NCBI GenBank assembly: GCA_947503525.1
Contig: CANNEA010000005.1
Coordinates: 248,001-312,000, forward strand
Length of the DNA: 64,000 bases
Reading direction: 5' to 3'
Source of the DNA: an uncultured Carboxylicivirga sp.
GTDB taxonomy: Bacteria > Bacteroidota > Bacteroidia > Bacteroidales > Marinilabiliaceae
Part shown: in pieces, positions 2,993 to 26,096 of the stretch
Layout: each line of letters begins with the position of its first letter
Position numbering within the stretch: position 1 is the stretch's first letter
Notes under the pieces: generated by a model
The model's input: only the letters and a program-made list of their open reading frames with translations
Databases searched by the model: none
What the model was told of the DNA's origin: nothing
Program-made: the position numbers and the translations under genes

Positions 2993-4738
2993 ATGCAAAA
3001 GGACGTATTAAACTCAGTTGTTGAGAAAGCAGAAGCTTGGTTGAACGGCGCCTACGATGACTCTACCAAAGATGCCATTCGTAAAATGATGAATGATGAA
3101 GATAAAACAGCACTAATTGATTCTTTTTATAAAGATCTTGAGTTTGGTACTGGAGGACTTCGTGGAATAATGGGACCTGGTTCAAACCGGATGAACCGCT
3201 ATACAGTAGGTGCTGCAACACAGGGCCTGGCTAATTACATTAATAAAGAATTTACTGATATAAAAGAAAAAGGTGCTGTCATTGGGTATGACTGTCGTAA
3301 TAACAGTAGGCTATTTGCTGAAGTTGTGGCAGATATTTTTAGTGCAAATGGTATTAAAGCATACTTATTTGAAGATTTGCGTCCAACGCCTGAAATTTCT
3401 TATGCTATCCGTCAATTAGGATGCCAAACTGGTGTTATTATAACTGCTTCTCATAATCCTAAAGCCTATAATGGCTACAAAGCGTATTGGGATGATGGTG
3501 CTCAATTAACTGCTCCACACGATACCAATGTGATAGATGAAGTAAATAATATTACATCCGTTGAAGACATTAAGTTTTCAGGTAATAAGGAATTAATTGA
3601 AGAATTGGGCGAGGAAATGGATAACCGTTTTCTTGATCAGGTACAGTCACTAGTTTTAGATCAGGATTTAATTGATCGTAACAAAGACCTTAAAATAGTT
3701 TATTCTCCTATTCACGGAACTGGAGTTAAAATGATACCGGCAGCTTTAAGGCGATGTGGATTTGAGAACGTGATTAATGTTCCGGAACAAGATGTTGTGA
3801 GTGGCGATTTTCCTACTGTTGTTTCACCTAATCCTGAAGAACCTGCTGCATTAGAGATGGCTCTAAATAAAGCACGCGAAACCGATGCTGATATTGTTAT
3901 GGCCTCCGATCCGGATAGTGATCGTTTGGGTATTGCGGTTAAGAATGAAAAAGGAGACTTTGTTCTAGTTAATGGTAATCAAACAGCCACCTTGTTGACA
4001 TGGTATATCATCAAAAAGTGGAAAGAACAAGGAAAATTCACCGGTAACGAATACATTGTTAAAACCATTGTTACCTCGGAATTAATTAAAGAAATTGCCG
4101 TTAAAAACGAAGTTGAATACTTTGATGTATATACCGGATTCAAATGGATTGCTAAGGTTATCCGCGACTTAGAAGGTAAGAAAAAATACATTTGTGGCGG
4201 TGAAGAATCCTATGGCTTCTTACCTGGCGATTATGTTCGTGATAAAGATGCTGTTGCAGCCATTACAATTACTGCCGAAATAGCAGCATGGGCTAAAGAC
4301 AATGGAAAATCTTTATATGATGTATTGCAAGACATCTATATGGAATATGGTTTTTCTAAGGAAAAAATGATCTATATTGTTCGTGAAGGAAAAAGTGGGG
4401 CTGATGAAATTAAACAATTAATGCAAAATTTCAGGAGTACTCCTCCTCAAACATTGGCTGGTGATAAGGTAAAAATCATTAAAGATTATGCTGATTTGAA
4501 TGCCTTTGATGTATTGAGTGATACTCATGAAGCGATAGATTTACCTGAAAAATCAAATGTTCTTCAATTCTTTACTGAAAAAGGATATAAAGTTTCTGTT
4601 CGTCCTTCTGGTACTGAACCAAAGATTAAGTTCTATTTTGAAGTTCAGGTTCCAATGAATAGTAAGGAAGAGTTTTACCCAGCAAATGAAAAGGCTGATG
4701 AAATTATTGAGGCAATTGTAAAAGACCTTGGTATTTAA
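2993..4738 (+). CDS. phosphoglucomutase/phosphomannomutase family protein
   Basis: The alpha-D-phosphohexomutase family enzyme (581 residues) interconverts hexose 6-phosphate and 1-phosphate. Visible motifs are the phosphoserine loop TASHNPKAYNGYK, the metal loop DPDSDRLG, the sugar-binding loop GGEESYGF and the C-terminal phosphate loop RPSGTEPKIKF. The length matches the long Bacteroidetes phosphoglucomutase-like group. I chose the ATG at 2993; a TTG two codons earlier is in frame but unnecessary. A strong hairpin terminator follows, so this probably ends the sugar operon. Confidence 0.93.
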   Translation: MQKDVLNSVVEKAEAWLNGAYDDSTKDAIRKMMNDEDKTALIDSFYKDLEFGTGGLRGIMGPGSNRMNRYTVGAATQGLANYINKEFTDIKEKGAVIGYDCRNNSRLFAEVVADIFSANGIKAYLFEDLRPTPEISYAIRQLGCQTGVIITASHNPKAYNGYKAYWDDGAQLTAPHDTNVIDEVNNITSVEDIKFSGNKELIEELGEEMDNRFLDQVQSLVLDQDLIDRNKDLKIVYSPIHGTGVKMIPAALRRCGFENVINVPEQDVVSGDFPTVVSPNPEEPAALEMALNKARETDADIVMASDPDSDRLGIAVKNEKGDFVLVNGNQTATLLTWYIIKKWKEQGKFTGNEYIVKTIVTSELIKEIAVKNEVEYFDVYTGFKWIAKVIRDLEGKKKYICGGEESYGFLPGDYVRDKDAVAAITITAEIAAWAKDNGKSLYDVLQDIYMEYGFSKEKMIYIVREGKSGADEIKQLMQNFRSTPPQTLAGDKVKIIKDYADLNAFDVLSDTHEAIDLPEKSNVLQFFTEKGYKVSVRPSGTEPKIKFYFEVQVPMNSKEEFYPANEKADEIIEAIVKDLGI

Positions 4739-6966: not shown

Positions 6967-7821
6967 ATGACGAATACATACGTTATTGATACGTCATTCG
7001 ACGAAAGTATAACTACATCATATTTCTTGTCCATCCGATCAGCATCGGATGGACTTTCTTTTTGTGTACTGGACCCGGTCATAAATTGCTATGTTGCGTA
7101 TGCTCATATTCCATTTAAAGATTTGAGTAACGATAACATTAAAACGCAAGAACTTCTTATCAAGGAGAAATTATTAAACATGCCTTACAAAAAGGTACTG
7201 TTTATGATTGAGTCATCAAAATCAACACTTGTTCCATCGGCACTCTACGATCCATCAAAAAAGGAAAAGATCTTTAGCTTGAATCATGAGTATAGTGAAA
7301 ATGAACACATCCTTTGCGCTCATAAAATAAAAATGGCTGATGCATGGAATGTATTTAGCGTCCCTAAATTTCTGTACCACTTAGTGAAAAACCAGTTTGA
7401 GTACATCTCATTCTATCAGCATTACTCGCCGTTTATAGAAACTTGTTTATTATCCGCTCAAAACAAGAAGTCTACATCAATATTAAATATTGATTTACAC
7501 GACCATTTTTTCGATATTGTACTTATGGAGTCCCGATCCTTGAAACTTTGCAATTCATTTCAGTATTCCAACATTAATGACTTTATCTATTTTGTTTTAT
7601 TCACCTTCGAACAATTAAAATTATCGCCCGACGATACTTTAATTAATATCTATGGTATACACGACAGACAGAATAGCTATTATCAAGCTCTAAAGCAATA
7701 TTTACGACAAACAAAGATTGCTGACACTACCAATCATTTTGAATACAAGGATGGTTTAAAAATAAAAGAAAGTCACAAACAAGAGCACCACAACCTTTTT
7801 AACTTAGCAATATGCGTGTAA
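6967..7821 (+). CDS. DUF3822 family protein
   Basis: The 284-residue protein fits the Bacteroidetes DUF3822 family, which has an actin/hexokinase-like ATPase appearance and is usually found immediately before rsmD. I chose the ATG at 6967 (MTNTYVIDTS), four bases after the previous stop; an upstream in-frame ATG at 6943 would overlap the previous gene. It overlaps rsmD by 10 bases, suggesting translational coupling. Function unknown. Confidence 0.75.
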   Translation: MTNTYVIDTSFDESITTSYFLSIRSASDGLSFCVLDPVINCYVAYAHIPFKDLSNDNIKTQELLIKEKLLNMPYKKVLFMIESSKSTLVPSALYDPSKKEKIFSLNHEYSENEHILCAHKIKMADAWNVFSVPKFLYHLVKNQFEYISFYQHYSPFIETCLLSAQNKKSTSILNIDLHDHFFDIVLMESRSLKLCNSFQYSNINDFIYFVLFTFEQLKLSPDDTLINIYGIHDRQNSYYQALKQYLRQTKIADTTNHFEYKDGLKIKESHKQEHHNLFNLAICV

Positions 7822-17003: not shown

Positions 17004-17855
17004 TTACTTAGCCTTTAAAAGTTGACGCACTAATTTAACACATTCTACGCCTTCTTTAACATCATGTACGCGTAAAATATTTGCACCGTTAAGTAAAGCT
17101 ATGGTATTTAGGGATGTAGTACCGTTTAACGCTCCCGTTGAATCCAACTCCAGAAACTTGTATATCATTGACTTACGAGACAATCCGACTAATAAAGGAA
17201 GGTTAAAAAGTTGCAACTGTTTCATTTCGCGTAATAAGGTATAATTATGATCAAGATTCTTTCCAAAACCAAATCCTGGATCAATTATTATATCATTATG
17301 CCCCAATAAAGACAACTCTCTAATCTTAGCCGAAAAATAATTTGAAATTTCCTGAATAAGATTTGTGTAATTTGGCTCATTCTGCATGTTCTGAGGAGTG
17401 CCTTTCATATGCATCATTATATAGGGCACTTTAAGCTTGGAAATGGTTTCAAACATATTCTTATCCATTTCACCTGCGGAGATATCATTGATAATATCTA
17501 CGCCATAATCTTCAACAACTCTTTTGGCTATTCCTGAACGAAAAGTATCTACTGAAATGATGGCATCCGGAAATTCCTTTTTAATCCAGTCGAGACTTTG
17601 TAATAGACGATCAATTTCATCTTCTTCAGATATATGCTTTGCTCCCGGTCGTGAAGAATATGCACCAATGTCAATTACATCTGCCCCTTCAGTTAATACT
17701 TGCTCACAGCGACTTAACACATCCGATTTAATATTATATTTCCCACCATCGTAAAATGAGTCAGGTGTAATGTTCAAAATACCCATGACCATGGCTTGAT
17801 CAAACGTATAAAGTTTCCCTTTAAGATTTATAGTTTTCTCGAATTGTATACTCAT
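17004..17855 (-). CDS. folP: dihydropteroate synthase
   Basis: FolP condenses pterin pyrophosphate with p-aminobenzoate in folate synthesis. The 283-residue protein shows MGILNITPDSFYDGGKY, DIGAYSSRPGA, SVDTFR, NDISAG and DPGFGFGK, covering both family signatures. It leads the folP-cdaA pair. Confidence 0.95.
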   Translation of the reverse strand: MSIQFEKTINLKGKLYTFDQAMVMGILNITPDSFYDGGKYNIKSDVLSRCEQVLTEGADVIDIGAYSSRPGAKHISEEDEIDRLLQSLDWIKKEFPDAIISVDTFRSGIAKRVVEDYGVDIINDISAGEMDKNMFETISKLKVPYIMMHMKGTPQNMQNEPNYTNLIQEISNYFSAKIRELSLLGHNDIIIDPGFGFGKNLDHNYTLLREMKQLQLFNLPLLVGLSRKSMIYKFLELDSTGALNGTTSLNTIALLNGANILRVHDVKEGVECVKLVRQLLKAK

Positions 17856-17966: not shown

Positions 17967-18692
17967 TTAGCGAGCAACTCCCGGAAAGTTCAAAACTTTT
18001 GCAATACTGTTTTTGTAACTTCTTCCTACCGGTAGTTCTTTGTTAAAAACTTCAATAGTACTTGCACTAAATGCCTCTATCTTATGCAAGGACACAATAT
18101 ATGATTTATGAATTCTTATAAAATCATTTTCAGGTAATTGCTCTTCCATCCAGGCCAGCGATAACTTAGTAATAATCCTTTTTTCTTTTGTGTATATTTT
18201 TATATACTCACTAAATCCCTCAATGTAAACAATATCGTTAAATACAACCTTAACATACCGCTTATTCTCCTTCACATAAATAAAACGATCTGATTCAACA
18301 GTGCCATCATAGGATACAATCGGCATCATATTCGATTCCTGTATTTGACAAAAGCGGGAAATCGATTTAAAGAAACGTTCAAAGGTAATGGGCTTTAATA
18401 AATAATCAACAGCATCTAACTCAAACCCATCGATAGCATATTCACGATAGGCGGATGTAATGATCACTTTGGCCTTTACATTTAAAGTTCGAAGAAATTC
18501 AAGCCCGGTAATTTGAGGCATCTGAATATCTAAAAACACCAAATCAACTTGTTTAGCACGCAAAAACATCATGGCCTCCATAGCCGAAGCACATTCGCCA
18601 CCAACCTCAAAACCCGGCACTTTTGACAAGTGATCCTTTATTAATTCTCTTGCTAAGGGTTCATCATCTATTATTAAACACATTGTTTTCAT
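17967..18692 (-). CDS. LytTR-type response regulator
   Basis: The 241-residue protein has an N-terminal receiver domain (about 1-120; acidic pocket IIDDEP, phospho-acceptor Asp55 in LVFLDIQMP, lysine in YLLKPI) and a C-terminal LytTR DNA-binding domain (about 140-238; RIHKSYIVSLHKIE, LPVGRSYK). It starts 15 bases after the histidine kinase stop, so it is the kinase partner. Targets are not visible; the adjacent SusCD genes are candidates. Confidence 0.93.
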   Translation of the reverse strand: MKTMCLIIDDEPLARELIKDHLSKVPGFEVGGECASAMEAMMFLRAKQVDLVFLDIQMPQITGLEFLRTLNVKAKVIITSAYREYAIDGFELDAVDYLLKPITFERFFKSISRFCQIQESNMMPIVSYDGTVESDRFIYVKENKRYVKVVFNDIVYIEGFSEYIKIYTKEKRIITKLSLAWMEEQLPENDFIRIHKSYIVSLHKIEAFSASTIEVFNKELPVGRSYKNSIAKVLNFPGVAR

Positions 18693-18707
18693 AGATATAT
18701 ATTTAGG

Positions 18708-19793
18708 TTAAACAAGTGAAATGAATTCATTATTTTGAGCATAATATTGATCAGTCTTAGGCTCACCAATTAATGTTAGATCTACAATAAAACAGTCTTT
18801 CATATCTCTTATGCTTAATTTATGAGTATCTGTATATAATATTTCTAATCGTTTTCTGGTATTTTCAATGCCAATACCTTGTTTCTTGTCTTTAAATTCA
18901 GACGAATTATTGGGTTTGGTATTTGTTATCTGGCACTTTATTTTTTCATCGAATGCATTTATGGAAATGTTGATTTTTGGTTCGTTCGGATCATTACTGC
19001 AACCATGTTTATAACAATTTTCTACAAAAGGGAATAATAACAACGGAGCCACTTGTTTATTCAAAACCTGAGGATCATAATCAATAGAAAACTTTAATCG
19101 CTTACCATATTTCATCCCTTGTAGTTCAGCATAGGTTTGAATCAATTCAATCTCATCACTAAGCAAAACCAATGGTTTGTTACTTTGATACAGCATAAAT
19201 TCAAACAAGTTTGATAATCTGGCAATCAACTTCGGAGCTTTATCCGATTTGCTAATTGTTAGAGAATATAAGTTATTCAAAACATTAAATAAAAAATGTG
19301 GATTAAGCTGTGATTTCAGCATACTCAATTCTGCTTCCAATCTATTCTTAATTAACTCAGATCTTTCTTTCTGCATTCTTACAGAAGCCATGTAAAACCT
19401 CATTAGAACCAAAAGGATGGAAGGCAAACTAACCCAAAATAAATTACGTCCAATATGACTTAAGGTAAAATAATTATTTGGGGCTAGTTCATTGGGCAAA
19501 TAAAGGCTATAAAAGACCTCATAAGTGGTAAGTAATTTTACCAAACTAGCCAATAAAGATAGAGCGACAACAGATCCCACTAACCAAAACACATTCCTTT
19601 TTTTATAATTAGGATATATCCAATAGGCCAATGGATAGGCAAATAAAAACACTGCAGGTAAATCAAATAAAAAGTGGAGCCAATAAAAGCCGAACGAAAA
19701 ATTACCTTCAATACTGATTAACACAGCAAAGAAAGTAATGTATATCACCCAAAATTGGAAATGAATCCTACCTTTACCCATAACACTTCTCAT
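18708..19793 (-). CDS. LytS/YehU-type sensor histidine kinase
   Basis: The 361-residue protein has four hydrophobic helices (about residues 12-30, 36-60, 68-90, 115-135) with little extracytoplasmic sequence, then a His_kinase domain (His166 in QLNPHFLFNVLNNLYSL) and an HATPase domain (PFVENCYKHG, GIGIENTRKRL). It lacks its own large sensor domain. The start codon overlaps the stop of the lipoprotein gene (ATGA), so the two are translationally coupled and the lipoprotein may be the sensor. Confidence 0.92.
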   Translation of the reverse strand: MRSVMGKGRIHFQFWVIYITFFAVLISIEGNFSFGFYWLHFLFDLPAVFLFAYPLAYWIYPNYKKRNVFWLVGSVVALSLLASLVKLLTTYEVFYSLYLPNELAPNNYFTLSHIGRNLFWVSLPSILLVLMRFYMASVRMQKERSELIKNRLEAELSMLKSQLNPHFLFNVLNNLYSLTISKSDKAPKLIARLSNLFEFMLYQSNKPLVLLSDEIELIQTYAELQGMKYGKRLKFSIDYDPQVLNKQVAPLLLFPFVENCYKHGCSNDPNEPKINISINAFDEKIKCQITNTKPNNSSEFKDKKQGIGIENTRKRLEILYTDTHKLSIRDMKDCFIVDLTLIGEPKTDQYYAQNNEFISLV

Positions 19794-21391
19794 ACGCTTT
19801 CCTGATAGATATATTTTAAATATTCTGGATTTATACCCTCTCCCGTTAGTCGTTTTACCAATTCATCCCATGGTATTGAATTACCATACGCCAAGAAATC
19901 ATCATTAAAACTAACTTTAAAATCATTGAATTTGTTGCTTGCGTACAGGAATTGAGAAGCCAAAACAATACTGTATAAATCAATACGCGCAGATCCATCT
20001 AATGCCAAAATATAAGGATCATTAATCCATTCTGCATTCTGCTTTTGTTTTTCAATATTTATAAACAAATATTGTTCAATTTTGCTCCAAAATAAGACGG
20101 TCAAATCTTGATCAGGATTCTCAAACATTTCTTGTTCCATTTCAGCCAGAACCAATAAATAACGAATTTTGAATAACAACCATGGATTCTGAATGCCACA
20201 ATCCAATTGGTCCTCCAAATGACCAAGCTCCAACTTCCTCCTTACCTTTTCGGACACAAAAGAAAGATTGGTAAAAAAAGAAGCAATGGCTTCCTCAATG
20301 ATTGGATTATGTTGTCGAAGAAAATAAGGAACAGATGAATCAACTTCAGCGGCAGCCAACAGGCGCCCCATATCTCCAAGATATAAAACCATGCCTCTGT
20401 CAGTTAAGGGAGTAGTGCAATAGCTTCGAAGATCATAATAATTATCACAATTTAAGATTATGGATTTGTAACGACCTTGTTTACATCCTGCCACCACAGC
20501 TTTATCAATGTACGATTCAAAACCTTCCACATATTCCCGAAACACCTCTGCACATGAACTTTTAATACCAATGCTGCTTCTTTCTCTATTCCATTGATTT
20601 GGATGCTGATATTGCTGCATAAAATAATAATAATGCTTTAATTTCAAATCACTTGAATTCAGATTCAAACTGTCACAAAGCAATTGTTCAGCCTTCTCTT
20701 TCAGCCTCCTATAATCCAATCTTGTGCTTAATTCAATTTGATTTAGAACCTTTCTTGAATTAGATTTCGTCACTTCGTTTCTTTCCATGACAAAATCGAA
20801 ATAATTATCATATCCGGCCAACACGGCAAATTTATTGGCAGAAATGAGGAAAGCATTTAAATCATAATGTAAAAGCTGCAATTGTTTTTTAAAGTCGTTG
20901 AAGAGGGTATCATTCCTTCTCCAATTTAGAGATTTGTGATTATTAAGAAGAGTAAAACTTTCTATTAATTCTGATCGCTTTAGTTCAATGCTATCATGAC
21001 CATAATTACTTGCCTTGAATCTATTCAAAAGTTCTTCAATTTGTCGATTCAAAAGTTGGTCATTAACAAGACCTGATTGCTTCACCCCCATTAAGAACCT
21101 ATAATCCGAGAAGTCACTAAAGAGTTGGCCTATATTGGACTGAAGCTCCATATATAAACCTTGTTTTCGATGAAGTGATCTGCAAAAATTTTGCAAGCTG
21201 TCGCTATTATCAACCTGCTGAGCAAATTGCCAATATGACTTATTAAATTCAGTTTGATATAACTTTACTTTTTCCTCTTGTTCACCTATAAAGTCCCTGA
21301 CAAGCGCATCGGTATTAGCCGATTTATTAAAACATGATGATAGCAAAAGAAATAGTAAGCTAAGTGTGTAGTTAGCATACCTGTAAATCAA
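19790..21391 (-). CDS. lipoprotein with degenerate M2 (ACE-like) peptidase fold, predicted pseudo-enzyme
   Basis: The 533-residue protein has a lipoprotein signal (hydrophobic residues 9-19, lipobox LSSC, Cys20). The alpha-helical body looks like the M2/M3 gluzincin fold: LAGYDNYFDFVMERNE, then at 339-343 GDMGR where ACE has HEMGH, and NPIIEEAIASFF where ACE has NPGFHEAIGD. The spacing from the first motif to Glu367 is 28 residues, exactly as between His383 and Glu411 of ACE. Both zinc histidines and the catalytic glutamate are replaced (Gly339, Asp340, Arg343), so no peptidase activity is expected. A later stretch around 460-490 and IPWDELVKRLTGEG also resemble the M2 C-terminus. The only usable start is TTG. 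It is coupled to a LytS kinase and LytTR regulator, so a ligand-binding sensor role is inferred. Confidence 0.75.
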   Translation of the reverse strand: MIYRYANYTLSLLFLLLSSCFNKSANTDALVRDFIGEQEEKVKLYQTEFNKSYWQFAQQVDNSDSLQNFCRSLHRKQGLYMELQSNIGQLFSDFSDYRFLMGVKQSGLVNDQLLNRQIEELLNRFKASNYGHDSIELKRSELIESFTLLNNHKSLNWRRNDTLFNDFKKQLQLLHYDLNAFLISANKFAVLAGYDNYFDFVMERNEVTKSNSRKVLNQIELSTRLDYRRLKEKAEQLLCDSLNLNSSDLKLKHYYYFMQQYQHPNQWNRERSSIGIKSSCAEVFREYVEGFESYIDKAVVAGCKQGRYKSIILNCDNYYDLRSYCTTPLTDRGMVLYLGDMGRLLAAAEVDSSVPYFLRQHNPIIEEAIASFFTNLSFVSEKVRRKLELGHLEDQLDCGIQNPWLLFKIRYLLVLAEMEQEMFENPDQDLTVLFWSKIEQYLFINIEKQKQNAEWINDPYILALDGSARIDLYSIVLASQFLYASNKFNDFKVSFNDDFLAYGNSIPWDELVKRLTGEGINPEYLKYIYQESV

Positions 21392-21453: not shown

Positions 21454-21482
21454 AAAAGCCAGGAATTATATTCCTGGCTTTT
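21454..21482 (-). terminator. terminator after the SusD gene
   Basis: A 12-base-pair perfect stem (AAAAGCCAGGAA with TTCCTGGCTTTT) closes a five-base loop just past the SusD stop. It separates the SusCD transcript from the pseudo-peptidase/kinase/regulator operon that starts about 60 bases further on. Confidence 0.85.
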
Positions 21483-21490
21483 ATTACTAT

Positions 21491-22900
21491 TTATTTGTCC
21501 CACCATATTGGTGTATTGACGTCATCATTAGGTACATTTTGTGAATTAGTACTAAATTCATCATAAGGATAAGGAAATCGTACAGGAATTCGATCTGAGT
21601 TCTGATTGTTTGCAGCAGGCATTAAACCAGGTTGACCATTTCTTCGCCACTCACTGTATGCCTCAAGTCCTTGATCAAAAAGTGCGATCCATTTTTGCAC
21701 ATATAATCCATTCAAATTTGAATATGGATTGTTACTTAAGAAAGTATTTGCTTCAGTATCATCAACATTCCACTGCTTCATTGATTCTAAAATGGCCGAG
21801 TTGTATAATGGTACCGGATCTGCACTTGTAAAACCTCTAGCCGCCGCTTCTGCTTGTAAAAAATAGGCTTCAGCACTCGTCATTAACAAGGTTGGTCGTT
21901 TCATTCCATCCTGATTAGTTCTATCATACCACCAATATGGTAATCTTGACAAATCATCCACGACACTTGTTCCATGACCATTTGGATTACCAACATAAAT
22001 AGTTGCTCCTTCAGCCAATTCAAAATAACTGGCACGACGAGGATCATTTGTTGTATTCATCAGATCTACTATCGAAGAGGACGGAGCTAAATCATTAGCA
22101 CGTCCGGCTGAAGTAAATCGTTCGAATAAAGGATTAAAATTATTTGTCGCTATACCATATCCAAATGTAGCATTATCAACATTTGCTGTAATAAATCCAC
22201 CTTCACCAATTAAAGTTTCTACATCGGAAGAATTAAACCCACTGGTGTTGCTCATACGCATAAGCAAGCGTAATTTTAAGGTCTGAGCAAAAGCCTTCCA
22301 TTGAAGTAAATTTCCATTGTAAATAACATCTTGAGTTGCTAATGCAGTTTCATTATCACCTTCCATCATTTCAACAGCATCATCAATCATTGAAATGAGT
22401 GCCGGATAAATGCTGGAAACCTCATCATACTCTGGCGTTAAGAACTCATCGATCTGCATTGCCTGCGTAAAAGGAACATCTCCCCACATGTCTGTAATTG
22501 CCTGATAAGCATAAGCCTGTAACAACATCGCAATGGCTTTCATATTAGGTGTATTTCTTTCTTCTGACAATTTAATGGCGGCATTAAGGTCCGACAAAGA
22601 TTGACCATAAAAATTACTCCAATGATTATCAAAATCAGTTGGTAACAACCTATATTTATCAACATCCCAATATTGGGTATATATACTGGACCAATGTTGG
22701 CAAATTAAGGATGCATCACGATTAACCTCAAAACCCATATAATAGGCTAATGCCCCTTCGCCCGCTGCAATCAAATATTCAGTTTCTACTTCCGTTGGAT
22801 CATTGGGGTTCTGATTAACATCCAGAAAATCTGATTCACAGCCCCATATTAATATTAATGATCCCAAAAGGACTAAACTATATTTATATATTTTCTTCAT
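21491..22900 (-). CDS. SusD/RagB-family nutrient-binding outer-membrane lipoprotein
   Basis: I chose the ATG at 22900 (MKKIYKYS), giving 469 residues and a clean lipoprotein signal ending LIWGC; the longer frame would overlap susC. Family features are FLDVNQNPNDPTEVE after the signal, the helical repeat region (AYAYQAITDMWGDVPFTQA), and a C-terminal EAYSEWRRNGQPGL. It resembles the SusD-like-2 group. It forms the surface lid of a SusC transporter encoded 13 bases upstream. No polysaccharide hydrolase is adjacent, so peptides or other small substrates are as likely as glycans. Confidence 0.92.
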   Translation of the reverse strand: MKKIYKYSLVLLGSLILIWGCESDFLDVNQNPNDPTEVETEYLIAAGEGALAYYMGFEVNRDASLICQHWSSIYTQYWDVDKYRLLPTDFDNHWSNFYGQSLSDLNAAIKLSEERNTPNMKAIAMLLQAYAYQAITDMWGDVPFTQAMQIDEFLTPEYDEVSSIYPALISMIDDAVEMMEGDNETALATQDVIYNGNLLQWKAFAQTLKLRLLMRMSNTSGFNSSDVETLIGEGGFITANVDNATFGYGIATNNFNPLFERFTSAGRANDLAPSSSIVDLMNTTNDPRRASYFELAEGATIYVGNPNGHGTSVVDDLSRLPYWWYDRTNQDGMKRPTLLMTSAEAYFLQAEAAARGFTSADPVPLYNSAILESMKQWNVDDTEANTFLSNNPYSNLNGLYVQKWIALFDQGLEAYSEWRRNGQPGLMPAANNQNSDRIPVRFPYPYDEFSTNSQNVPNDDVNTPIWWDK

Positions 22901-22913
22901 AGCTTTCGCGTTT

Positions 22914-25900
22914 TTAAAATTCAAGACTTAAACCAAATGAGAAACTCTTAGTTGATGGACTGTTTGCATATTCATATCCATGAAGGTTTCCTGTAGTAGC
23001 ACCTGCATCAACCTCAGGGTCAATATGTGGTATGTTTGTACCAAACAATAACAGATTTCTTCCTGAAGCATAAATATTACCCGCGTTGAAGAATTTTGTT
23101 CTCTTTAAAAGATTAGCCGGTAATCGATATGTTAAGGTAACCTCACGAAGCTTGATATAGGAAGCATCAAATACAAACTGATCATCCACAGCGAATAAAT
23201 TATGCCAATGGTAATCATTAACTGTTGTTGTTGTTGAATTGGGCTGATAACTCACATTGCCATTTCCATCATCAATTTTATTGACTGAATTAGGTAGTAC
23301 AAAATCATCTTCTCTACTATGTCCAAACATGGATTCTGTTTCAATTACCTGTCCGGAATGGCGTAAAATAGCGATTGAAGTTGAATATAAATCACCACCT
23401 TGTTTAGTATCAAATAAAACACTTAAAGAAAGGTTTTTGTATGAAAAGGTATTGCGCATACTACCCATCCAATCCGGATTAGGATCTCCTATTTTCTGAG
23501 GATCATTTTGAATTACCGGCAAACCATCATTGGCATTTACCACCAAATTTCCATCAGGATCCTTTTCATAATACGATCCATATATAACCCCAAATGGCTG
23601 ACCTACCCTCACCTGAAAACTTGGACTTGTAAATCCGCCAGGAAGAGTAATAGCATCAACACCTTCAGTTAAACTAAGAACTTTGTTCTTATTTTTTGAA
23701 TAATTGAAATCAATATCCCAACTAAAGTTTGCTGTTTTTATAGGGTTAAACCTAAGAAGCACCTCAATTCCCTTATTCTCAATCTCTCCGGCATTAATGT
23801 AGTTTTGACTATATCCGGTAGTTGGTGAAACGGCATGTCGGATAATTTGATCTTTAGTCGTCTGATTATAATAGGTTAAATCCAGACCAATTCGATTATT
23901 GACAAAATACAATTCCGTACCAATCTCAAAATTGGTTTGCATTTCAGGTTTCAGGTTAGGATTCTTTCTGGATTGTTCAACCGAAAATCCATTGACCTGA
24001 CCAACCGGAAACTTAAAATTATCACTTAACGGATCATGCACATCCGTTCGTTCGTAAACGCTCTGTATTCTATACGGAGGCGCATCATTACCTACCTGAG
24101 CCCAGTTTAAACGTATCTTACCATGATTAAGAATCGAGGGGTTGATATCAAGCAAATTAGTAAATAAAAATCCCAGACCCGCTGATGGATAAAAATAACT
24201 GTTATTGTCTGTTGGTAGCGTTGACGACCAATCATTACGAGCAGTTACATCAAAAAACAGATAGTTTTTATAACCAAAATTTAAAGATGCGTATATACCA
24301 TGCAAGCGCCGTATTGATTTATAATCGGTTGATTGTACAGTTGTTGCATTATCTAAACTATACAAACCATTATTAATTAATTCGGCTGCTTCTAATCTTG
24401 TATCAGCAAATTTACGTTGATTAATATTATGTCCAAGTATAGCATTAAGATCTAAATCATCGCTTAGCTTTGCATTATAGCTTAAAAAATAGTCAGCTGT
24501 AATTTGTGATGAATTAACAAAGTAGTTAATAAATCCACCTCGTGGTTTATCTGTACTAAAACCACCAAACGCGAACTTCTCGGCCCTATCGTCATTATAT
24601 GTATCAATTCCTATACGACCTATTAAAGATAAGCCCTTCGCTAATTTCAAATCAGCTTCAACGTTTCCAAAAAAGCGTGTACGGCTATCATCATTCGGAT
24701 TTTGTTCTAAGATAAACCATGGGTTATCCCACCAGAATGATTCATAGAATCCCAAATATTGACCATTTTCATCCTTCAAATTACGCATTTCGCGCCAATC
24801 GAAATTTCGTCCTGACCATAAAAACATGGCATTAATACCACCATAATCGTATTGCCCTTGAGGATCACGATTATGAGCTGATGATAATACAAGGTTAGCC
24901 GAAGAAGATACTTTTAAGCGATCATTTGGTCGAAAACTGCCATTAAAAGAAAACTGATTCTTTTTAAAGGTACTTGTCGGCATTATACCTTTCTGATCCA
25001 AATTGGTCCATGAAAATCGATAATCAAATTGATCAGACTTTCCAATTATTGATAAATTATTGCTATACAATATGCCTGTATCATAAAAATCTTTACGGTT
25101 ATCCGGCTTAGGTGTTAAGGCTACCGACTCACCGGTTATGGGATGTAACTCCATGCGTCCATCCATTTCTGGTCCCCAACTTTCATCAGGAGCATAACCG
25201 AAATTATCGACAGCATAACCCAATCCTTCATTGAAATAACCCTGTGCATATTTATTTTGGTAGTCAGGTAATTTCAAAGGTGAGGAAAGAGATACTGAAA
25301 AATTATAAGTTACACCAAATTTATTCTTGGCATCCTGTCCACTTTTTGTTGTAATGATAATTGCTCCATTAGCCGCTCGTGATCCATATAAAGCAGCCGC
25401 GGTACCTCCTTTAAGAACAGAAATATCGGCAATGTCATTTGGGTTAATGTCCATAGCAGCATTACCATAATCAATACCTCCACGACTATAGCCATCGGCA
25501 GCACTCGAATAATTACCATTGTCTAAAGGAATCCCATCCACAACAAACAAAGGTTGATTATTGCCTGTTACTGAAGACCAACCACGCATTATAACACGAG
25601 ATGAAGACCCAATTGATCCATTGGATTGAGTAACCTGAATACCTGCTACTTTTCCTGTCAGGTTATTAACAAAGTTAGTTTCTTTGGCTTTAACCATTCC
25701 ATCCGTATCCACCTTCTCAACTGCATATGTCAAACCTTTCTTCTCTCGCGAAATACCCAGTGCCGTCACAACCACTTCATCAACAGCAACTGCATCCGGT
25801 TTAAGCACAACGTTGAGCTCACTTCGACCACTTGCATTGTGCTCTTGAGTTTCCATTCCGATAAATGAAAACACTATTAGTTGTGTATCACTATTAAGGT

Positions 25901-26096
25901 TAATACTATAGGCTCCATCATTTCCGGTTATTGTACCAATGGTAGTTCCTTTAACTAAAACAGATACTCCGGGAATTGGAGATCCATCTTCTGATGAAGT
26001 TACCACGCCACTAACTGTTTGCTGAGCCTGTACGAAGCCGGTAAAAAACAGGGCTCCAATTACAAATAGAAATAAATGTTTTCTTTTCATACTCAT
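22914..26096 (-). CDS. SusC/RagA-family TonB-linked outer-membrane transporter
   Basis: The 1060-residue protein has a signal peptide (about 1-25), a carboxypeptidase-regulatory-like domain (QTVSGVVTSSEDGSPIPGVSV onward in part), a TonB plug (about 115-255, with GSRAANGAIIITTKSG) and a long C-terminal beta barrel ending in SFSFGLSLEF with terminal Phe. It imports a ligand captured by the neighbouring SusD across the outer membrane using TonB energy. ATG at 26096 or 26090 are both possible. The 280-base upstream gap has a minus-strand TACTTTTG (26313-26320) without a good -33. Confidence 0.94.
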   Translation of the reverse strand: MSMKRKHLFLFVIGALFFTGFVQAQQTVSGVVTSSEDGSPIPGVSVLVKGTTIGTITGNDGAYSINLNSDTQLIVFSFIGMETQEHNASGRSELNVVLKPDAVAVDEVVVTALGISREKKGLTYAVEKVDTDGMVKAKETNFVNNLTGKVAGIQVTQSNGSIGSSSRVIMRGWSSVTGNNQPLFVVDGIPLDNGNYSSAADGYSRGGIDYGNAAMDINPNDIADISVLKGGTAAALYGSRAANGAIIITTKSGQDAKNKFGVTYNFSVSLSSPLKLPDYQNKYAQGYFNEGLGYAVDNFGYAPDESWGPEMDGRMELHPITGESVALTPKPDNRKDFYDTGILYSNNLSIIGKSDQFDYRFSWTNLDQKGIMPTSTFKKNQFSFNGSFRPNDRLKVSSSANLVLSSAHNRDPQGQYDYGGINAMFLWSGRNFDWREMRNLKDENGQYLGFYESFWWDNPWFILEQNPNDDSRTRFFGNVEADLKLAKGLSLIGRIGIDTYNDDRAEKFAFGGFSTDKPRGGFINYFVNSSQITADYFLSYNAKLSDDLDLNAILGHNINQRKFADTRLEAAELINNGLYSLDNATTVQSTDYKSIRRLHGIYASLNFGYKNYLFFDVTARNDWSSTLPTDNNSYFYPSAGLGFLFTNLLDINPSILNHGKIRLNWAQVGNDAPPYRIQSVYERTDVHDPLSDNFKFPVGQVNGFSVEQSRKNPNLKPEMQTNFEIGTELYFVNNRIGLDLTYYNQTTKDQIIRHAVSPTTGYSQNYINAGEIENKGIEVLLRFNPIKTANFSWDIDFNYSKNKNKVLSLTEGVDAITLPGGFTSPSFQVRVGQPFGVIYGSYYEKDPDGNLVVNANDGLPVIQNDPQKIGDPNPDWMGSMRNTFSYKNLSLSVLFDTKQGGDLYSTSIAILRHSGQVIETESMFGHSREDDFVLPNSVNKIDDGNGNVSYQPNSTTTTVNDYHWHNLFAVDDQFVFDASYIKLREVTLTYRLPANLLKRTKFFNAGNIYASGRNLLLFGTNIPHIDPEVDAGATTGNLHGYEYANSPSTKSFSFGLSLEF

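Follow-up and report, generated by a model that had tools for sequence, protein, structure and literature searches.

Three adjacent genes in the 64,000-nucleotide stretch of an uncultured Carboxylicivirga sp. analysed here (hereafter the window) on balance probably form a three-component operon, in which a degenerate lipoprotein of peptidase family M2 (angiotensin-converting enzyme, ACE) does the sensing outside the cytoplasm for a LytS-type histidine kinase with short outer loops. The lipoprotein has lost nearly all of the positions that bind zinc and inhibitor in ACE, and its association with the kinase is more than chance; the same four genomes of the family carry both genes side by side.

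Organization of the locus

The features of the locus are as follows.

19790..21391, minus strand: M2-peptidase-like lipoprotein (pseudo-peptidase), 533 aa, TTG start, Cys20, GDMGR at 339-343, Glu367
19790..19793, minus strand: ATGA overlap of the lipoprotein stop and the kinase start
18708..19793, minus strand: LytS-type sensor histidine kinase, from Pfam and hydropathy
17967..18692, minus strand: response regulator with receiver and LytTR DNA-binding domains, from Pfam
17004..17855, minus strand: folP, found downstream of the triplet in all four genomes and serving as anchor of the synteny, outside the system
21454..21482, unstranded: stable hairpin in the susD/lipoprotein intergenic region, z -7.0

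The coordinates and motifs reported in a preliminary description of this DNA (GDMGR at 339-343, the NPxxxEAI motif, here NPIIEEAI at 362, and Glu367) were recovered unchanged on the minus strand, as were the lipoprotein stop lying on the kinase start, here seen as ATGA, and the LytTR regulator 15 bases beyond the kinase (18693-18707). In the four genomes that have it, the lipoprotein gene directly precedes the kinase gene, with a 4-base overlap in two and a gap of 1 or 4 bases in the other two. The hairpin is also listed by a pattern scan, although that scan returned 2 sites where chance alone would give 2.2. It is likely the point at which transcription of SusCD stops, which would probably leave the triplet as a transcript of its own.

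Homology of the lipoprotein to M2 peptidases

The window protein has the lipobox LLSSC with Cys20 (read by eye), as expected of a bacterial lipoprotein. Cysteine also occupies the lipobox column in the related proteins of MAG16 and JC017, the AYSC box of the latter not being the usual one. The A049 contig begins right at the lipoprotein gene (L019 1-90), and its signal peptide is therefore not assessable.

As a single sequence, the window protein gave no credible match in searches of Pfam, NCBIfam and the PDB, and a four-row profile of the kinase-linked lipoproteins gave none against the PDB. Its affinity to family M2, claimed in the preliminary description, was seen through intermediates and is well supported by them. 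A search of 100 relatives matched 14 genomes, namely the window's own, three with proteins at 32–37 % identity and ten at 23–26 %, with HExxH present in seven of those ten. Peptidase_M2 (Pfam) was matched by six of eight homologues scanned, at 4.5e-19 to 3e-29; three of the six had HExxH (all those scanned from a set of 23 Bacteroidales HExxH homologues) and three belonged to a second clade without it, while the two without a match were the kinase-linked proteins of JC017 and MAG16. Compared profile to profile with the 23 HExxH homologues, the four-row profile aligned over 506 columns with probability 100 and E=3e-52. A 32-row profile including the kinase-linked four reached human ACE at 4.7e-23, with the HEMGH and the second His region of ACE aligned. 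Judged from these profile comparisons, the window lipoprotein is homologous over its length to M2 peptidases. The 23 Bacteroidales homologues resemble it in this full-length homology and in the lipobox-column Cys, found in 22 of 23 rows.

In these comparisons, identical loci were counted once, the class-wide search covered matches at least as strong as E 1e-40, and one locus set comprised loci from 30 places. The 32 rows of the alignment, A2, leave out seven of the 39 distinct homologues (L008, L026, L029, L033, L039, L041 and L050).

Two AlphaFold models built from four-row alignments were poor, with mean pLDDT of 46 and 45. Foldseek searches with these low-confidence models returned mostly M2, M3 and M32 peptidases by title, the top listing including ACE, ACE2, neurolysin, oligoendopeptidase F and M32 carboxypeptidases. 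For one model, ranks 1-37 were peptidases or ACE2 complexes by title, apart from uninformative titles at ranks 20, 27 and 31; for the other, ACE or ACE2 was named in 48 of the best 50 matches and the remaining two were spike complexes whose visible titles were silent on the point. With a best E of 1.8e-3 and TM of about 0.2, the structural matches point weakly to M2/M3/M32 peptidases, in a test of the gluzincin fold that the preliminary description had called for.

Loss of catalytic residues

Ten positions equivalent to the zinc ligands and lisinopril contacts of ACE were read from alignment A2 and carry what we take to be the corresponding tACE residue numbers. The zinc- and lisinopril-binding residue set itself follows PMC3235092. 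All ten were retained in 23 of 23 HExxH homologues, three of them by construction since the rows were chosen for HExxH. The window protein differs sharply. It keeps one of ten, the Glu411 equivalent (Glu367), which lies at +24 after residue 343 and is the sole zinc-site residue left; GDMGR replaces HExxH, and the equivalents of His353, Lys511, His513, Tyr520 and Tyr523 are K, D, Y, A and D. It thus has neither the full set of zinc ligands with the catalytic Glu nor the ACE-type substrate residues of an active M2 enzyme, which bears out the loss of catalytic residues described earlier.

The other kinase-linked proteins retained two of ten in MAG16 (Glu384 and Glu411 equivalents), one in A049 (Glu384, with a Glu near 411 one place off by eye) and seven in JC017, including HELAH, the third-ligand Glu and both Tyr equivalents; His353, Lys511 and His513 equivalents were absent from JC017 in alignment A2. 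In best single pieces, the HExxH-homologue profile matched JC017 at 110 bits, MAG16 at 68, the window protein at 60 and A049 at 48, although in summed pieces A049 ranked above the window protein. JC017 contradicts the idea that HExxH disappears whenever the kinase is adjacent: in the same operon, its protein retains the three zinc ligands as well as the catalytic Glu.

Across the four lipoproteins, which have open frames throughout and are 32–37 % identical to the window protein, 81 residues are invariant. Around the old zinc site (window residues 326-350) none is invariant, while eight are in residues 351-375, and the segment SVPYFLR near the site is invariant in all four. With the equivalents of the ACE cleft contacts mostly gone and no invariant residue in 326-350, a conserved peptide clamp is not evident.

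A cleft left unconserved within an otherwise conserved fold would suit a lipoprotein that binds no peptide and instead restrains or activates the kinase structurally, reporting the state of the envelope in the manner of CpxP or LpqB. The faster evolution of the lipoprotein (32–37 % identity) relative to the kinase (50–58 %) would fit such a role too. We nevertheless consider such a ligand-free role rather unlikely, as the invariance of SVPYFLR speaks against it and a retained fold of more than 500 residues is, in our judgement, much for a simple brake.

A second, separate clade of M2 homologues (100/100 support) was also observed. Its members have YE-x-x-[F/I] where HExxH would stand, and Asp at the position of the third ligand, but retain the Lys511, His513 and both Tyr equivalents. 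Its genes include the following.

L009, 544-2265: second-clade (YE-type) gene
L011, 1477-3222: second-clade (YE-type) gene
L014, 1432-3081: second-clade (YE-type) gene
L036, 1426-3159: second-clade (YE-type) gene
L043, 1429-3159: second-clade (YE-type) gene

The stretches compared around these genes contained neither a LytS-type kinase nor a related regulator. One YE-type gene (L126) has an M28 peptidase upstream and a sigma-70 factor downstream (3030-4316 and 6987-7481), and another is divergent from the gene of a large sensor that combines two-component propeller repeats with Y_Y_Y and SpoIIE domains (L128 3164-6469).

Kinase and response regulator

Short-outer-part LytS-type kinases are frequent in Bacteroidales, and their signals are mostly unknown. 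By Pfam the kinase and regulator are ordinary: His_kinase (PF06580) matched the kinase at 2.7e-23 (82.4 bits against a cut-off of 25.2), and Response_reg and LytTR matched the regulator at 2.1e-22 (79.8 bits) and 2e-20 (73.2 bits). Hydropathy indicated about four membrane helices in the kinase, with outer loops at about 29-40 and 90-113, roughly 12 and 24 residues long, the inside and outside being assigned from Lys and Arg positions. Loops this short agree with the earlier statement that the kinase lacks an external sensor domain.

Among the four kinases, 18 of 36 outer-loop residues are invariant, compared with 0/10 in the inner loop, 29/80 in the helices and 97/211 in the kinase core. The invariance is mainly that of the first outer loop (8/12), and the second (10/24) does no better than the core and three of the four helices (0.40-0.42), so that outer-loop conservation is not strong evidence for contact. 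In eight sister kinases, seven of the 36 outer-loop positions are invariant and one holds the same residue as in the four, a rough comparison given that the two sets differ in divergence. This pattern suggests that the first outer loop may be a better candidate docking site than the second.

At 15 sister-kinase loci inspected by eye, a same-strand upstream ORF was seen once (L106), glycosidase-like by eye; at the other 14 the next upstream ORF within the 1.5 kb flanks was short or on the other strand.

Distribution and co-inheritance

The lipoprotein was found in four of 71 genomes of the family: the window genome and the Marinilabiliaceae bacteria A049 (G006), MAG16 (G022) and JC017 (G032), A049 being congeneric with the window genome. 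Kinase and regulator adjoin the lipoprotein gene in all four, giving each the accessory partner gene of a three-component system, and the triplet stands upstream of folP and cdaA in every case, with at least one extra ORF between regulator and folP in JC017. The three-gene order is thus conserved wherever the lipoprotein occurs in this sample of four genomes, one a MAG and one interrupted by a contig end. Two patterns derived from the group matched A049, MAG16 and JC017 and no further genomes among 84,980 species genomes, a collection that may omit the window's own genome and a search that would miss members lacking the patterns.

A profile of the four kinases scored 654-676 bits for the four and 248 for the best other kinase listed across the 71 genomes; by this search a kinase orthologue is absent from the other 67 genomes of the family. 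The lipoprotein and kinase trees have the same shape, JC017 branching outside MAG16 and MAG16 outside the pair of window and A049, with moderate support for the inner branch (90/79 and 88/92 in the lipoprotein and kinase trees respectively) and with long branches flagged by the program in the lipoprotein tree. Together, the shared set of genomes, the gap in score and the concordant trees indicate a tight, conserved link between the lipoprotein and this particular kinase.

Other folP neighbourhoods, compared in 40 of the 63 other folP-bearing genomes, contained the lipoprotein in none, several of them ending at contig ends. Three (L062, L070 and L088) had only distant kinase or regulator homologues at 27–33 % identity, and three from the window's genus (L054, L055 and L065) had the ABC transporter gene that borders the block in the window directly before folP, that is, an empty site. 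Among 41 distinct M2 homologues with flanks, a same-strand LytS-type kinase was found solely beside the four; the flanks of the other 37 (about 1.5 kb, some shorter) had none, and one of these (L024) had a kinase of this type, with a regulator, close by but encoded on the other strand. The Bacteroidales HExxH homologues thus differ from the window protein in genomic context as well as in catalytic positions.

A search of the 71 genomes with PF01401 for an active M2 enzyme found none (0/71), missed all four triplet genes as well and gave 0 in 14 control genomes; a positive control gave five of five. The 23-row profile matched 12 of the 71 genomes. Four of these matches were to the triplet genes, and those in the eight other genomes were weak and partial (<=28 bits); one additional match of this weak, partial kind (<=28 bits) occurred in JC017.

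Proximity and co-inheritance are also what would be expected of a regulator and its target, as if the lipoprotein did something else outside the inner membrane and were simply under the control of the two-component system. We regard functional separation of this kind as improbable, given that the kinase is a lineage of its own, absent from the other 67 genomes, and that the lipoprotein gene abuts it so closely, overlapping it in two of the four.

Neighbouring genes

In the window the ABC transporter gene and folP enclose a SusC/SusD pair (21491-26096) together with the triplet; in three congeners the same two genes are direct neighbours. The nearest solved structure to the window SusC is BT2264 (563 bits), and according to PMC7782687 Bt2263/64 binds a peptide. 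A link to peptide transport through SusCD was considered as evidence for a peptide ligand and rejected. Other structures match the window SusD better (148 bits) than BT2263 does (96 bits). The MAG16 triplet adjoins a SusD of the SusD_RagB family, while that of the window is SusD-like_2. The JC017 locus has no SusCD, and in the window the hairpin parts susD from the triplet. No conserved clue to the ligand emerged from the neighbourhood, as SusCD adjoins the triplet in two of the three genomes with a visible upstream side and comes from different SusD families.

Upstream of the triplet, MAG16 (L018 541-1008) and JC017 (L020 4707-5180) encode proteins of 155 and 157 aa that look secreted and, by eye, resemble each other; neither had a Pfam match. 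No convincing shared DNA site emerged when three upstream stretches were aligned.

Proposed function and evolution

The C. elegans protein ACN-1 is an animal protein with a role in moulting, and we know of no kinase partner for it. Like the window protein, it belongs to the ACE family and lacks the metallopeptidase active site, so that an ACE-family pseudo-peptidase is already known in animals (PMC3235092). A bacterial ACE-family pseudo-peptidase paired with a two-component system was not found among titles and abstract openings of the open-access literature.

The nearest working models are XylFII-LytS and CuaDSR of Clostridia, each comprising a binding protein, kinase and regulator, with cuaDSR forming an operon; there the binding protein is reported to join the outer portion of its kinase (PMC9769921, PMC10384115). 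These systems resemble the triplet in bringing together an extracytoplasmic protein, a sensor kinase and a response regulator. They differ in that their partner is a sugar-binding protein of solute-binding fold rather than a degenerate M2 peptidase, and in that their LytS has a four-helix outer domain, whereas the triplet has short outer loops and a LytTR-type regulator. In Sinorhizobium, JspA/LppA with ExoR-ExoS-ChvI likewise involves a lipoprotein metalloprotease that modulates a two-component pathway, but JspA is proposed to take part in ExoR degradation as a working protease, and the abstract describes no such operon (PMC10659215).

We consider the best explanation of these comparisons to be that the lipoprotein is a co-sensor, which would place the triplet among the kinase systems that have an accessory protein on the outside, with an unusual recruit in that role. 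Within this co-sensor reading we infer physical contact, a ligand, a direction of signalling and a set of target genes. The lipoprotein would meet its ligand outside the inner membrane, the likeliest being a peptide in the old substrate cleft, since the ancestral fold is a peptide clamp. On binding it would change shape and touch the outer loops of the kinase, which would phosphorylate the LytTR regulator and so alter transcription of the target genes. Peptide binding by the lipoprotein and signalling through the kinase are accordingly the two steps that we infer for it.

The position of JC017 outermost in both trees makes kinase pairing first and zinc-ligand loss later the simplest order. The simplest reading of the four genomes would be that pairing, along with loss of the His353, Lys511 and His513 equivalents, preceded a single loss of the zinc ligands in the common ancestor of MAG16, A049 and the window genome. 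In a fuller form, which we put forward tentatively as possible, a peptidase became a kinase receptor subunit stepwise, pairing while its zinc site was intact, losing its substrate-handling residues first and its zinc ligands last, with JC017 as a living intermediate whose zinc-loaded cleft may still bind, and perhaps cut, the signal peptide. That the protein is still an enzyme, at least in JC017 and perhaps with another specificity, the kinase sensing product or occupancy, is very improbable, since despite the HELAH, third-ligand Glu and both Tyr equivalents of JC017 that protein has no His353, Lys511 or His513 equivalent and the window protein is down to one of ten positions.

If the lipoprotein is indeed the sensing subunit, the triplet would represent a LytS-type kinase with a dedicated, co-inherited outer partner, in a group of kinases whose signals are mostly unknown. 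In the four-genome series the kinase pairing seems to predate zinc-site loss, and the conversion of an enzyme into a receptor would thereby become testable in a small system.
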